From Sphingomonas sp. AX6 (GTDB taxonomy: Bacteria > Pseudomonadota > Alphaproteobacteria > Sphingomonadales > Sphingomonadaceae), in contig NZ_LR733979.1 in NCBI RefSeq assembly GCF_902506605.1, forward strand, positions 2,154,008 to 2,218,007: a stretch of 64,000 nt of DNA, written 5' to 3'. The notes below the pieces were generated by a model that was given only the letters and a program-made list of their open reading frames with translations, had not been told where the DNA came from and searched no databases. Made by a program: the position numbers and the translations under genes. Position 1 is the stretch's first letter, and each line of letters begins with the position of its first letter. This document shows, piece by piece, positions 13,178 to 18,458 of this stretch.

Positions 13178-14146
13178 GTGACCATCGTAAGACAGCCCAC
13201 CCGCGCCGGCGTGCGCGATGCCGCAGCCAAAATTGCAGACATCCTGCCCGAAACGCCGCTTTTCATACGCGACATTCGCGGGGTGCCGATCGCGTTCAAA
13301 GCCGAATCGCTGCAACCAATGGGCGCGTTCAAACTGCGCGGTGCATGGCACCGGCTGACCGTGCTGGACGATGACACGCGGCAAAAGGGCGTGGTCGCTT
13401 TCTCGTCCGGCAATCATGCGCAGGGGATCGCCTGGGCAGCGCAGCGGCTGGGCATGCCCGCGACCATCGTGATGCCGTTGGACGCGCCCCGGGTGAAGCG
13501 CGACGCGACGCTGGCCATGGGGGCCGAAGTCGTCAGTTACGACCGCAAAACAGAGAATCGCGAAAAGATCGCCGCGCACCTGGCGCATTCGCGCGGTGCG
13601 GTGCTCGTCCCCAGCTTCGACGACCCCTGGGTGATCGAGGGGCAGGGCAGCGCCGCGCTGGAGGCGGCGATGCAGATGGAGGATCTGGGGCTGGACGAAC
13701 CCATCCATGTCGTCGTGCCGTGCGGCGGCGGTGGGCTGGCGGCGGGATCGGCGCTGGCGCTGCCCGATTCCCGGATCACCGTGGTCGAGCCCGAAGGCTG
13801 GGACGATATGCGCCGCAGCCTGGAGGCCGGCTGGATCGAACCGGTCGGACCCGATGCGCCGCCGACCGCCTGCGATTCGCTTCAGACGATGGAAGTGTCC
13901 CCGCGGACGTTCGAGGTGCTGGCGCGGCGCGGTGCGACGGGGGTGGCGGTCAGCGAGCGTGAAATCCGCGATGCGCAACGCTGGGCGGTGCGGCACCTGA
14001 ACCTCATCATCGAACCCGGCGGTGCGGTGGCGCTCGCTGCATTGCTGTCGGGCAAGGTCGAGGTGGAGGAGGGGATGCTGGTCATCCTCTCGGGTGGCAA
14101 TGTCGATCCGGAAGCCTTTGCCAAGGTTTTGGCCAGCGTGGATTGA
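13178..14146 (+). CDS. Threonine/serine dehydratase-like PLP enzyme
   Basis: 322 residues starting at GTG 13178 with GAGGG upstream. The fold-type II signature has PLP Lys in MGAFKLRGAWHRL (near residue 53), SSGNHAQGIAWAA for substrate carboxylate binding, and PCGGGGLAAGSALAL for cofactor phosphate. It lacks the C-terminal ACT regulatory domain of biosynthetic IlvA, so it belongs to the short catabolic threonine dehydratase/serine racemase group. The likely reaction is deamination of L-threonine or L-serine to a 2-oxo acid. The stop abuts the end of the convergent psp-associated operon. Confidence 0.85.
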   Translation: MTIVRQPTRAGVRDAAAKIADILPETPLFIRDIRGVPIAFKAESLQPMGAFKLRGAWHRLTVLDDDTRQKGVVAFSSGNHAQGIAWAAQRLGMPATIVMPLDAPRVKRDATLAMGAEVVSYDRKTENREKIAAHLAHSRGAVLVPSFDDPWVIEGQGSAALEAAMQMEDLGLDEPIHVVVPCGGGGLAAGSALALPDSRITVVEPEGWDDMRRSLEAGWIEPVGPDAPPTACDSLQTMEVSPRTFEVLARRGATGVAVSEREIRDAQRWAVRHLNLIIEPGGAVALAALLSGKVEVEEGMLVILSGGNVDPEAFAKVLASVD

Positions 14147-14404
14147 TTAAAGGTCCACGCCCGCGGCAATCGCTTCGAGCTTGCGGATGCGTTCCTTCAG
14201 GTCGGCGATTTCGATCCGGGCGCTGGCGTTGCCGGTCGGGACCGGGTCGGCATGGCCGTCGTGATGGTGGCCGACGAACGACATTTCCTGACGTTTGAGG
14301 GCGAGCCATCCGCGCCATCCGGCGAGGCTGGCGGCGATCACCATGCCCAGCGCCGCCAATCCGGCCGCTGCCATGATCATGTAGAAATCGGGGCTGTTCA
14401 TCAT
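14147..14404 (-). CDS. Small psp-operon membrane protein 6 (last gene)
   Basis: 85 residues if translation starts at the ATGATG at 14404, which has GGGAG before it; an alternative ATG at 14419 overlaps the previous stop as TGATG and adds 5 residues. One membrane helix (about 9-30) precedes a WRGWLALKRQE basic segment, a His-rich HHHDGH stretch, and a C-terminal amphipathic helix (DLKERIRKLEAI). It has the same helix-plus-coil plan as its upstream neighbours but lacks their final TD...EIERLR tail. No family was recognised. It is last in the long operon begun by pspA. Confidence 0.65.
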   Translation of the reverse strand: MMNSPDFYMIMAAAGLAALGMVIAASLAGWRGWLALKRQEMSFVGHHHDGHADPVPTGNASARIEIADLKERIRKLEAIAAGVDL

Positions 14405-14418
14405 CTCTACTCCCGTCA

Positions 14419-14691
14419 TCAGCTGCGGTTCTTGTCGCGCAGCCGCTCGATTTCGTGGTCGAGGCGCAGGCTGCCTTCATTGTCGGTCACGACGCGTTCG
14501 AGCACGGCGACACGGTCCTTCAGCGTGCGGACTTCGTCGGTCAGCCGCTTGTTGTCGGCGGCGGTGGCGGCGTCGTTACGGTCGAAAAATTCGTTGCCGT
14601 GCTTGTCCTTCCGCATCCCGTATTTGGCGCGCAGCACGCTGCCGATGGTGACGAGGAAGACGATCGCGACGACCATTTCGAAGGGGTTCAT
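14419..14691 (-). CDS. Small psp-operon PspB-like membrane protein 5
   Basis: 90 residues. The N-terminal membrane helix (about 4-20) is followed by a basic stretch, then a coiled coil from residue 45 with LKDRVAVLERVVTD and the closing HEIERLRDKN. That tail is shared with the proteins at 14858, 15137 and 15481 and with PspC. The plan (membrane helix, linker, coiled coil) is that of PspB, although sequence identity to classical PspB is low. It overlaps the following gene at TGATG. Confidence 0.7.
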   Translation of the reverse strand: MNPFEMVVAIVFLVTIGSVLRAKYGMRKDKHGNEFFDRNDAATAADNKRLTDEVRTLKDRVAVLERVVTDNEGSLRLDHEIERLRDKNRS

Positions 14692-14720
14692 GGGGCGGCT
14701 CCCTGGTTACGGTGGGCGGT

Positions 14721-14846
14721 TCAGGCGGCGGTTTCGACTTCGCGGGCCAGGCGTTCGGCGCGGCGCAGCGGGCGATCGCGCTTTTCCGCGATGAACACGC
14801 CGCCGGCGGTCAGCAGGGTCATGACGACGATAAATCCGATAAACAT
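14721..14846 (-). CDS. 41-residue psp-operon single-span membrane protein
   Basis: ATG at 14846, stop at 14721-14723. One membrane helix (residues 2-19, FIGFIVVMTLLTAGGVFI) is followed by a strongly basic amphipathic segment rich in Arg (EKRDRPLRRAERLAREVE). It fits exactly between two psp-like small genes on the same strand, with short gaps on both sides. That arrangement supports it as a real gene. Function unknown; it resembles a PspB truncated before the long coiled coil. Confidence 0.6.
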   Translation of the reverse strand: MFIGFIVVMTLLTAGGVFIAEKRDRPLRRAERLAREVETAA

Positions 14847-14857
14847 TGTGTTGGTCC

Positions 14858-15124
14858 TTAGTTGAGCGGGCGGTCGCGCAGCCGTTCGATCTCGTCGGAG
14901 AGTTCGAGGCCGCGGTCGGTGATGATGCGTTCCAGCACCTGCATGCGTTGTTCTAGGCGTTCGGTGTGCGCCGCATATTGCGCGGCCTTCTCGGCGGTCT
15001 GGGCGCTCATCAATTCAAGCTGCTTTTCCTTGAACTTGATATGGCGCTTGTAGACGTCGCCCAAGACACCGGCGATGACTGGGATTCCGACGACGATTAG
15101 AAAAAACCAGATGTAACCGGGCAT
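14858..15124 (-). CDS. Small psp-operon PspB-like membrane protein 3
   Basis: 88 residues. N-terminal membrane helix (4-22) and a KRHIKFKEKQLELM basic/amphipathic segment precede a coiled coil with ERLEQRMQVLERIITD. The closing DEIERLRDRPLN gives the operon's shared tail. It starts 12 bases after the stop of the preceding gene. It probably sits in the inner membrane with the coil in the cytoplasm, available to bind PspA-type or PspC-type partners. That interaction is inferred. Confidence 0.7.
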   Translation of the reverse strand: MPGYIWFFLIVVGIPVIAGVLGDVYKRHIKFKEKQLELMSAQTAEKAAQYAAHTERLEQRMQVLERIITDRGLELSDEIERLRDRPLN

Positions 15125-15136
15125 GGCGGGCGCTCC

Positions 15137-15457
15137 TCAGTTGGCCGGGCCGCGCAGCTGTTCGATCTCGCGATCGAGCAGATGGCTGCTGTCGGTGACG
15201 ATGCGTTCGACATTGGCGAGGCGATCCTTGACCGAACCGAGTTCGGCGCGGAGCTGGGCGTTTTCCTGGCTGAGCAGTTTGACCCGCTCCAGCGTTTCGC
15301 CGCTGTTCTTCGGATAGACTGCCTGACCCCAGGCACCGTCGAGCGGATAGCCGTTCTTGATCCGCATCCAGGTGGTGAGCACCCAGCCGACCATCCCGGC
15401 CACGCCGACGATCGCGACCATCGGTCCGATCACCTGCAGAATTGCGACTTTTTCCAT
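15137..15457 (-). CDS. Small psp-operon PspB-like membrane protein 2
   Basis: 106 residues. Membrane helix at about 7-30, then WMRIKNGYPLDGAWG, which closely parallels WIRAKHGYPIENEW of the next upstream gene product at 15481. These two are therefore clear paralogs. A coiled coil from residue 52 includes LSQENAQLRAELGSVKDRL and ends in VERIVTD...REIEQLR. Good purine-rich ribosome site (GGAACCGAGACG) before the ATG. Function not recognised beyond psp context. Confidence 0.7.
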   Translation of the reverse strand: MEKVAILQVIGPMVAIVGVAGMVGWVLTTWMRIKNGYPLDGAWGQAVYPKNSGETLERVKLLSQENAQLRAELGSVKDRLANVERIVTDSSHLLDREIEQLRGPAN

Positions 15458-15480
15458 CGTCTCGGTTCCTTACTTGCGGC

Positions 15481-15771
15481 TCAGCGCAGTTCGTCGATTT
15501 CGCGCGCGGTGCGGGCTGCCGGATCGGTGGCGATGCGCTCCAGCACTGCGATGCGTTCTTCGAGGCGCGTCACCTTACCGTGTAGTTTCTCGTTCTCGCT
15601 GGTCAGCAGACCCACTTTGCGTTCGGCCTCCGGATCGTTGCGGGTGACGCTGCCAACCCATTCGTTTTCGATCGGATACCCGTGCTTGGCGCGGATCCAG
15701 GTGCTGATCAGCCAGCCACCCGTGCAGACCGCAATGATGGCGATGACGAAGGCGGGTCCACCGAAACTCAT
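15481..15771 (-). CDS. Small psp-operon PspB-like membrane protein 1
   Basis: 96 residues. Membrane helix about 5-25, then WIRAKHGYPIENEW (paralogous to the product at 15137), then a coiled coil with LTSENEKLHGKVTRLEERIAVLERIATD and the tail AREIDELR. It directly follows pspC. Duplication from a pspB-like ancestor, with retention of the coil register, is the simplest reading. Confidence 0.7.
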   Translation of the reverse strand: MSFGGPAFVIAIIAVCTGGWLISTWIRAKHGYPIENEWVGSVTRNDPEAERKVGLLTSENEKLHGKVTRLEERIAVLERIATDPAARTAREIDELR

Positions 15772-15803
15772 CTCAAACTCCTCCCTTTATGCTTCCGTGC
15801 TTT

Positions 15804-16181
15804 TCAGCGCAGGCGCTCGATCTCGTCGGCGAGCTGGGTGTTGCGGCTGGTGTAGAAGGTTTCCATGTTCGCCAGCCGACGGTCGATGTCGCGTAGTTTC
15901 GAGCGTACTTCCGCGGTGGTGCGCTTCGGGTTCGACCGGGTGCGCTGCCAGAACTTCTCGTCCTCTTCGTTCTCATAGAGGCCGATCGGCTTTTTTGGCG
16001 CGATCAATCCGGTGGCGACATAGGCGATCAGCATGGCGCCCTGGGTGAAGACAGTCAGCATGACCATGCCGACGCGAACCAGCGTCAGGTCGACACCCGT
16101 GTAATCGGCAATCCCGGCGCAGACGCCCATCCACTTGGCATTCTGTTTGTCGAGGTAGAATTTGGTGCGGGTCGCGGACAT
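15804..16181 (-). CDS. pspC: Phage shock protein C (PspC)
   Basis: 125 residues from the ATG at 16181 (GGAGGAG upstream). The PspC domain is evident in FYLDKQNAKWMGVCAGIADYTGVDLTLVRV, followed by a membrane helix (about 38-60). The C-terminus is a coiled coil ending in LADEIERLR, the same tail as the downstream small proteins. PspC is an inner membrane stress sensor that, with PspB, releases PspF from PspA when the membrane is damaged (established in enterobacteria). It lies one base after pspB. Confidence 0.9.
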   Translation of the reverse strand: MSATRTKFYLDKQNAKWMGVCAGIADYTGVDLTLVRVGMVMLTVFTQGAMLIAYVATGLIAPKKPIGLYENEEDEKFWQRTRSNPKRTTAEVRSKLRDIDRRLANMETFYTSRNTQLADEIERLR

Positions 16182-16182
16182 G

Positions 16183-16455
16183 TCAGCTCCTCCGGGTATA
16201 GTCGAGTTCGGGGCGGGTCGGCGTCGATCCGACCTGGGCACGGAAATCGGGGTTGTCGGCAGCAACGATGCGTTCGATCGTGTCGAGGCGGTCGTCGAGG
16301 CGGCGGGCCATCTGGTGCAGCTCGTCGAGCAACTGCTCGTCCTCGCCGGTCATCGAGGGTGCCTGCTTCCACTTGGTGATGTAGTGGAAGATCACCCAGG
16401 GGAGGCCGATGAACAGCATCCCGACGATGACGATGGGAAGAAAAACGTCTTCCAT
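16183..16455 (-). CDS. pspB: Phage shock protein B (PspB)
   Basis: 90 residues. Membrane helix 5-24, then HYITKWKQAP, and an amphipathic helix with LLDELHQMARRLDDRLDTIERIV. That is the standard PspB form, with the usual order pspA-pspB-pspC. PspB works with PspC at the inner membrane to signal envelope stress. It begins 4 bases after the pspA stop. Confidence 0.9.
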   Translation of the reverse strand: MEDVFLPIVIVGMLFIGLPWVIFHYITKWKQAPSMTGEDEQLLDELHQMARRLDDRLDTIERIVAADNPDFRAQVGSTPTRPELDYTRRS

Positions 16456-16459
16456 GCGC

Positions 16460-17128
16460 TCAGCCCTCCTTGTTCATGCGCGCCTTGAGCGCCTGAAGTT
16501 CGGCATCGACCTTTTCAGACGCGTTCAGCTCGGCGATTTCCTCTTCGAGCGTCTTGGGCGGAGCGCCCAGCGATAGCGCGTCGGCGCGGCCTTCGGCGAA
16601 ATCGACGCGGCGTTCGAGGACATCGAAACGGCTGAACGCATCCTCGGTCTTCGCGCCGCCCAATACTTCGCGCATCCGGAAGCGGTTGTTCGCCGATTCC
16701 AGTCGGGTATTGATCGAATTCTGGCGAGTGCGCGCTTCCGACAACTTCTTTTGAAGCTTGGCGATGTCGCCTTCGGATGCACGCAGCGCATCGTCGAGCA
16801 CCAGAATTTCGGCGGTAAGCTGATCGGCCATGTCGGCGGCTTTCTGACGCTCGATCAAGGCAGCCTTGGCCAGATCCTCGCGGTCCTTCGACAGCGCCAG
16901 TTCGGCCTTTTCGGTCCAGCTTTCCTGAAGTTTTTCGAGCTTCGCGATGTGGCGACGCATTTCCTTCTGGTCGGCGATAGTGCGCGCAGCGGATGCGCGG
17001 ACCTCGACCAGGGTTTCCTCCATTTCGAGGATGATCATGCGGATCATCTTTGCCGGATCTTCCGCCTTGTCGAGCAAGTCGGTCATGTTGGCGGCGATGA
17101 TGTCGCGGGTTCGCGAGAAAATGCCCAT
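16460..17128 (-). CDS. pspA: Phage shock protein A (PspA/ESCRT-III-like)
   Basis: 222 residues, nearly all predicted long coiled-coil helix. The N-terminus MGIFSRTRDIIAANMTDLLDKAEDPAKMIRMIILEME is the canonical PspA amphipathic membrane-binding start. PspA binds and blocks PspF in unstressed cells and polymerises on damaged inner membrane (established). It is the first gene of a nine-gene run ending at 14147, transcribed from a sigma-54 promoter at 17307-17323. The leader of about 170 bases is strongly structured. Confidence 0.95.
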   Translation of the reverse strand: MGIFSRTRDIIAANMTDLLDKAEDPAKMIRMIILEMEETLVEVRASAARTIADQKEMRRHIAKLEKLQESWTEKAELALSKDREDLAKAALIERQKAADMADQLTAEILVLDDALRASEGDIAKLQKKLSEARTRQNSINTRLESANNRFRMREVLGGAKTEDAFSRFDVLERRVDFAEGRADALSLGAPPKTLEEEIAELNASEKVDAELQALKARMNKEG

Positions 17129-17306: not shown

Positions 17307-17323
17307 TGCAGGGGGCGTGCCAA
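17307..17323 (-). promoter_or_regulatory. Sigma-54 promoter of the psp operon
   Basis: Minus strand TTGGCACGCCCCCTGCA contains the -24 GG (17321-17320) and -12 GC (17309-17308) separated by exactly 10 bases, matching the TGGCACG-N4-TTGC consensus closely. It points toward pspA, and the PspF gene, a sigma-54 activator, diverges from 17412. About 90 bases upstream of the promoter remain for PspF binding sites. Confidence 0.85.
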
Positions 17324-17411: not shown

Positions 17412-18458
17412 ATGGAACGCACGACCCAGGTTATCGGCCAATCCTCGGCCTTTCTCGACACGCTGGAACGCGCCAGCCGTGCCGCCGCGCTCGACCGCCC
17501 TGTGCTGGTCATCGGCGAGCGTGGGACGGGCAAGGAGTTGGTGGCGGAACGCCTGCACCGACTGTCCCCGCGCTGGGACCAGCCGTTGGTCATCATGAAC
17601 TGCGCGGCCTTGCCCGAAACACTGATCGAAGCCGAATTGTTCGGGCATGAGGCAGGCGCGTTCACCGGCGCGACGCGGGCGCGGGCAGGGCGGTTCGAGG
17701 AGGCGGACAAGGGGACGTTGTTCCTTGACGAACTCGGCACCTTGTCGATGGCGGCGCAGGACCGGTTGCTGCGCGCGGTCGAATATGGAGAGATTACGCG
17801 GATCGGCTCGTCGCGGCCGATACGGGTCGATGTGCGGATCGTGGCGGCGACCAACGAGCATTTGCCCGACAAGGTCGACCGGCACCAGTTTCGCGCCGAT
17901 CTGCTCGACCGGTTGAGTTTCGAGGTGGTGACGATCCCGCCGCTGCGCGCGCGACCCGGCGACGTGATGGTGCTGGCCGAACATTTCGGGCGGCGGATGG
18001 CATCCGAGATCGGCTGGGACGACTGGCCGGGGTTCGGCCCGGAGGCGACCGACGCGCTGACCCAATATCGCTGGCCGGGCAATGTGCGCGAACTGCGCAA
18101 CGTGGTCGAGCGCGCAGTCTATCGCTGGGAACGCGATGGGCCGATCGAGCAGATCGAGATCGACCCGTTCGATTCACCCTATCGCCCGCGGGGCAGGGGG
18201 GCGGGGTCGATGAACGCGCAGCGTCGGGATCAGGCGGCGGCGGAACCGGTCGAGGCCGAAGCGCCGGTGGCGGTGGACGCTGTGCCCGTGCTCGACGGCG
18301 CCGATTTCAAAACGCGGGTATCGCAATTCGAAAAGACGCTGCTCCAGCGCGCAATGGCGGAGCACCGCTTCAACCAGCGCGCGACCGCGGACGGGCTGGG
18401 CCTAACCTATGACCAGTTGCGCCATGCGCTGAGGCGGCACGGAATGCTGGGAAACTGA
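17412..18458 (+). CDS. pspF: Sigma-54-dependent activator PspF
   Basis: 348 residues from the ATG at 17412. The AAA+ domain starts almost at the N-terminus with no sensory domain, typical of PspF. Walker A is GERGTGKELVAERL, GAFTGA is the sigma-54 contact loop, and the sensor region RWPGNVRELRNVVERA follows. A Fis-type helix-turn-helix (NQRATADGLGLTYDQLRHALRR) closes the protein. A longer Ala/Glu/Pro linker (about 255-300) separates the domains. It should drive the divergent psp operon and be inhibited by PspA. The upstream in-frame extension is rejected because it crosses the operator region. Confidence 0.95.
   Translation: MERTTQVIGQSSAFLDTLERASRAAALDRPVLVIGERGTGKELVAERLHRLSPRWDQPLVIMNCAALPETLIEAELFGHEAGAFTGATRARAGRFEEADKGTLFLDELGTLSMAAQDRLLRAVEYGEITRIGSSRPIRVDVRIVAATNEHLPDKVDRHQFRADLLDRLSFEVVTIPPLRARPGDVMVLAEHFGRRMASEIGWDDWPGFGPEATDALTQYRWPGNVRELRNVVERAVYRWERDGPIEQIEIDPFDSPYRPRGRGAGSMNAQRRDQAAAEPVEAEAPVAVDAVPVLDGADFKTRVSQFEKTLLQRAMAEHRFNQRATADGLGLTYDQLRHALRRHGMLGN

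Follow-up and report, generated by a model that had tools for sequence, protein, structure and literature searches.

The phage-shock protein (psp) operon of Sphingomonas sp. AX6 continues past pspA, pspB and pspC into six extra small genes, here called s1 to s6, and this expanded operon is real, conserved and under-described. Four of the six encode mutually related membrane proteins whose C-terminal tail is linked by profile comparison to that of PspC.

Results

Layout of the expanded psp operon

The window, by which we mean the whole 64,000-nucleotide stretch of DNA analysed, encodes PspF, PspA, PspB and PspC in the standard order of a Proteobacterial Psp system, each above its curated cut-off (Table 1). 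It resembles the canonical E. coli and Yersinia pspF-pspABC(DE) loci in the divergent pspF, the sigma-54 promoter and the order pspA-pspB-pspC, but differs from them in its six extra genes, none of which matches a PspD or PspE family in Pfam or NCBIfam. The initial annotation had described six same-strand small genes of 41-106 residues, and all six are present on the minus strand. Neighboring genes of the operon are separated by 1-32 nt (11-32 nt from pspC through s6), a Shine-Dalgarno-like sequence precedes each of s1-s6, and no terminator-like site was found on the coding strand within the operon. The start of s6 is probably at 14401 rather than 14419, a choice preferred because a Shine-Dalgarno-like sequence sits between these two ATGs. 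The next gene downstream of s6 (13178-14146) is convergent to the operon.

The sigma-54 element upstream of pspA matches TGGCACNNNNNNTGCW with zero mismatches and is one of two exact matches in the window. The site upstream of pspA scored 18/19 in 57 of 69 Sphingomonas loci, compared with 1 of 600 shuffles, where the score expresses the sequence match only.

Table 1. Genes and promoter of the expanded psp operon, with the divergent activator gene (positions in the window)
Feature	Position	Strand	Description
pspF	17412..18458	+	divergent sigma-54 activator; TIGR02974, 480 bits (cut-off 443.55)
sigma-54 -24/-12 type promoter	17307..17322	-	TGGCACGCCCCCTGCA; upstream of pspA, same strand
pspA	16460..17128	-	TIGR02977, 275 bits (cut-off 242.95)
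pspB	16183..16455	-	TIGR02976, 82 bits (cut-off 51.7); PF06667, 88 bits
pspC	15804..16181	-	TIGR02978, 125 bits (cut-off 104); shared tail at C terminus
s1 (96 aa)	15481..15771	-	TM; WIRAKHGYP; shared tail
s2 (106 aa)	15137..15457	-	TM; WMRIKNGYP; shared tail
s3 (88 aa)	14858..15124	-	TM; TAEKAAQYAA linker; shared tail
s4 (41 aa)	14721..14846	-	single TM; E-x-x-DRP-x-RR; no shared tail
s5 (90 aa)	14419..14691	-	NPFEMVV-type TM; shared tail
s6 (84 aa)	14147..14401	-	TM; GWRGWLxLKRxE; shortened tail RIEIADLKERIRKLEAIAAGVDL; ends the operon

A tail shared with PspC

The C-terminal ends of s1, s2, s3 and s5 follow the pattern [LV]ER[IV]-x-TD...EI-[DE]-x-LR, and PspC ends in ...DEIERLR. These are the four extra proteins that, together with PspC, had initially been credited with tail motifs; the shortened version of the motif in s6, DLKERIRKLEAIA, was not counted there. 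The second motif noted at that stage, W-[IM]-R-x-K-x-GYP, is indeed common to s1 and s2.

A tail profile was built from 28 paralog sequences and searched against the whole genome (3.02 Mb) and 177,635 PDB sequences. The best seven matches in the genome were, in order, s1, s2, s5, s3, PspC, s6 and PspB, which sets the tail apart from coiled coils in general. The four paralogs scored 87-108 bits, followed by PspC (30.8 bits, E value 8.5e-7), s6 (18.0 bits, 0.009) and PspB (17.0 bits, 0.018), while unrelated loci reached at most 13.5 bits and the next match had an E value of 0.21. Among the PDB sequences, many of them coiled coils, the top score was 17.8 bits. The initial annotation had named recurrence of the tail in many unrelated coiled coils as the observation that would speak against it; instead, all seven of the best genomic matches are members of the operon. 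The genome search and the PDB scores together led us to reject a generic coiled coil for the tails of s1, s2, s3, s5 and PspC. With this profile alone, PspB and s6 of the window score at the generic coiled-coil level, and each of them, taken alone, could be a generic coiled coil. The solved structures in the PDB (177,635 sequences in the paralog-profile search) included no PspC relative and no paralog match above background.

Comparison by hhalign, using profiles made from relatives, gave probabilities of 98.5-99.9% among s1, s2, s3 and s5, 89-95% for PspC against s1, s2 and s5, and 60-77% for PspC against s3. PspB was matched to s1-s3 at 82-93% and more weakly to s5 (8-61%). On these profile comparisons, the mutual homology of s1, s2, s3 and s5 and the link between their tail and that of PspC stand, and kinship of the tail with PspB is suggested at lower confidence. 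The PspB link is supported by E. coli PspB, which the paralog profile matched across the transmembrane segment and helix at 20.7 bits, against a PDB best of 17.8.

The alignment shows a core common to these proteins, R-[IVLM]-x-x-[LVIM]-E-x-[IFY]. Beyond it, an EIE-x-LR type end occurs in PspC and in each of s1, s2, s3 and s5, and is lacking in PspB; the four paralogs thus appear to combine a PspB-like layout with a PspC-like tail. The initial description of a PspB-type module stood for the layout: like PspB (PF06667 / TIGR02976), the paralogs have one N-terminal transmembrane segment, followed by a helix that in their case is predicted to be cytoplasmic. It did not stand for the PspC-type EIE-LR end of s1, s2, s3 and s5, nor for family membership, since the best scores of s1-s6 (15.0 bits in Pfam and 20.9 bits in NCBIfam) lie far under the PspB cut-offs of 25.6 (PF06667) and 51.7 bits (TIGR02976). 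The paralogs have a PspC-type leucine-zipper tail, both by hhalign with PspC and by the genome profile search, including the final E-I-E-x-L-R of the window PspC; they differ from PspC in having no PspC domain (no match to PF04024 in s1-s6). Over a tail core of 14 residues, identity between subfamilies is 56%, versus 25% for the N-terminal parts, the former figure being inflated by the choice of the core by pattern.

Membrane topology, s4 and s6

Hydropathy analysis gave one transmembrane segment near the N terminus, and no second one, in proteins of the s1, s2, s3, s5 and s6 types, in line with the N-terminal membrane helix originally assigned to each extra protein; s4 has a single transmembrane segment. 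The C-terminal side is more positive than the N-terminal side in 42 of 43 s2, 71 of 71 s3, 52 of 55 s6, 49 of 59 s5 and 22 of 39 s1 sequences. An N-out/C-in orientation is predicted by the positive-inside rule, with a good fit in s2, s3 and s6, a fair one in s5 and a weak one in s1. AlphaFold2 predicted helices for s1 at low confidence (pLDDT 68) and two helices for s6 (pLDDT 81).

Judged by its sequence, s4 stands apart as a short protein that carries a conserved motif of its own, E-x-x-DRP-x-RR, after the transmembrane segment; it occurs in 32 of 80 Sphingomonas loci versus 1 of 60 in the family-wide sample. The s6 gene closes the operon in 79 of the 80 loci fetched by PspA and in 55 of the 60 family-wide loci, never occupying any other place where it occurs, and its tail is near-invariant in the alignment of relatives. 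With an hhalign probability of 84-86% against s3, s6 is probably a distant relative.

Conservation across the family

The PspA of the window has its closest matches in named Sphingomonas species. We compared 140 relatives of the locus, comprising 80 fetched by PspA (nearly all from Sphingomonas) and 60 drawn across the GTDB family. The operon position of the extra genes is kept in nearly all of them. The number of tail paralogs per locus is 0-5, mostly 3 or 4, in the 80-locus set and 0-7 in the 60-locus set; these numbers and the s6 counts are lower bounds, since contig ends cut some loci. In at least one locus (L126, genome G076), no tail paralog was detected beside pspABC and s6; it offers a natural minimal version for comparison.

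For 208 of the 212 paralogs in the 60-locus set the nearest relative lies in another genome, and for 4 in the same locus, indicating that the subfamilies are old and that most of the duplication is older than the genera. Recent tandem duplication was accordingly rejected except for these 4. The repeated duplication originally proposed is thus upheld as paralogy of four of the proteins, but not as a fresh event within one strain. The tree groups the sequences by subfamily, with 8 changes versus 127 in shuffles; s2 forms one clade of 44 with support 99, and many other forks are without resolution. Each subfamily retains juxtamembrane motifs of its own from one genus to another. The dN/dS values against the nearest aligned relatives (approximately 0.24 for s1, 0.23 for s2, 0.16 for s3 and 0.48 for s5) show that the paralogs are under purifying selection.

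The paralogs are also lost together with psp. PspC is absent from 13 of 200 family genomes; PspA is absent from all 13, and the paralogs from 12. The one genome that has paralogs without PspA and PspC is only 66% complete, and its contig breaks off 22 nt past them.

Relatives outside the family

The psp loci of the family hold up to seven paralogs; the sister families mostly have one copy. Elsewhere in the order, a genome with any match has one in most cases, and sometimes two. In the sampled genomes, the single relative of the sister families is often far from psp; in one sister family, a copy of the tail protein also lies inside the psp operon. Outside the order, at least three sampled genomes of the class have a match. 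No sigma-54 site scoring above shuffles was found at the stand-alone relatives of the sister families, and control of these genes by PspF and sigma-54 was rejected on this ground. Since the relative is often away from psp and has no such site, the tail may have psp-independent uses. In a sister-family genome, one stand-alone tail protein (L231:3996-4268) lies away from psp, directly behind an apparent rpoD identified by eye.

Two sister families have other variants of the operon. In one (f165), the psp operon contains a second short PspC-domain protein of approximately 80 aa without the tail (L232:2936-3187, also L234 and L236), encoded directly 5' of a tail protein in its own right, an arrangement that looks like a PspC divided into two proteins. 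In the other (f162), a second PspB follows pspC (L241:2671-2895; 38.9 bits in NCBIfam and 38.2 bits in Pfam, over the Pfam cut-off), a duplication that differs from the one in Sphingomonas.

Discussion

In E. coli, membrane regions mediate the interaction of PspB with PspC, and both the binding of PspA and the induction of psp depend on the C-terminal leucine zipper of PspC (PMC3068692). In Yersinia, PspA is bound in the on state by the C-terminal cytoplasmic domain of PspC (PMC5596341). Against this background, we favor as probable the reading that the extra genes encode accessory PspB/PspC sensor subunits, which tune the PspBC-PspA switch or add docking sites for PspA. Flores-Kim and Darwin (2015, 2016) reportedly found two alternative partners for the PspC tail, the PspB tail in the off state and PspA in the on state. 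In the simplest case, extra single-pass tail proteins would take part in such an exchange or compete in it.

In our proposed mechanism, s1, s2, s3 and s5 would each cross the inner membrane with one helix, with the N terminus outside and the helical PspC-type tail in the cytoplasm. At the membrane, the partners of the extra tails would be PspB, PspC, one another and/or PspA. In the enterobacterial model, the PspC tail binds PspA when on, PspA leaves PspF, and the operon is turned on; on the input side, the differing transmembrane and juxtamembrane parts would change how easily this switch flips, and on the output side, the common tail would set the number of PspA docking sites in the induced cell. 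The tail core is common to the subfamilies (it was picked by pattern), whereas the transmembrane and juxtamembrane parts differ between subfamilies and are kept within them, as expected for one output with several inputs.

The main rival, which we regard as rather unlikely, is that the extra proteins are mainly effectors without any sensing role, serving as stoichiometric anchors or caps for PspA assembly or stabilizing the membrane directly, as is thought for E. coli PspG. PspG, which is an effector and binds PspC directly, provides a precedent (PMC3068692). All of the extra genes lie downstream of pspA in the induced operon and their products should therefore abound mainly after induction; the constancy of s6 as the last gene and its near-invariant tail also fit an effector. 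However, the tail is like that of PspC, a part needed for signal passing in E. coli (PMC3068692), and juxtamembrane motifs that are distinct for each subfamily across genera seem to exceed what a passive anchor needs. PspA docking and the accessory-subunit reading are compatible, and both can be true.

We consider it improbable that the paralogs are negative regulators, that is, decoy PspC or PspB tails that hold PspC off or compete for PspA in a feedback shut-down. PspC-like tails without the PspC domain would suit decoys, and induction alongside pspA would give delayed negative feedback, but up to seven copies are more than simple feedback needs. It is very improbable that these are psp-independent coiled-coil membrane proteins adjoining pspABC by chance: stand-alone relatives do occur away from psp in sister families, but the operon position is kept in nearly all 140 loci, the paralogs are lost together with psp, and the tail is common to PspC.

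The accessory-subunit reading can be carried further, to a version that we hold tentatively, as possible. The PspBC sensor of the Sphingomonadaceae might have been made combinatorial, with differing membrane-facing subunits joined to one PspA/PspBC-binding tail, so that types of damage would be read separately and summed on PspA-PspF, and with s6 as a constant terminal subunit.

Zymomonas is a sphingomonad; when it is stressed, its pspA, pspB, pspC and ZMO1062 rise, and the extra genes are not reported there. Ravi et al. (2024) devoted a single main-text clause to the occurrence of PspB duplicates in psp operons (example AOL22920.1), and also described a divergent PspB fused to PspC (PMC11237479). 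Those duplicates are alike in being extra PspB-like genes within the operon; the clause gives no subfamilies, counts, s6 or function. We found no literature on these genes in Sphingomonas or Novosphingobium. In the literature searched, including the main text of Ravi et al., we also found no description of how large the expansion is, of its four subfamilies, of PspB-type proteins with a PspC-type tail, of s6 as a constant member or of the loss with psp.

The operon likely provides a context for a large set of small proteins that neither Pfam nor NCBIfam models cover. The tail common to the paralogs is a pointer to the output interface, and the transmembrane and juxtamembrane motifs of the subfamilies to possible inputs. 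The 0-7 paralogs that accompany a constant pspFABC in this family form a natural series for studying, by comparison and experiment, how PspB and PspC detect damage and signal to PspA.
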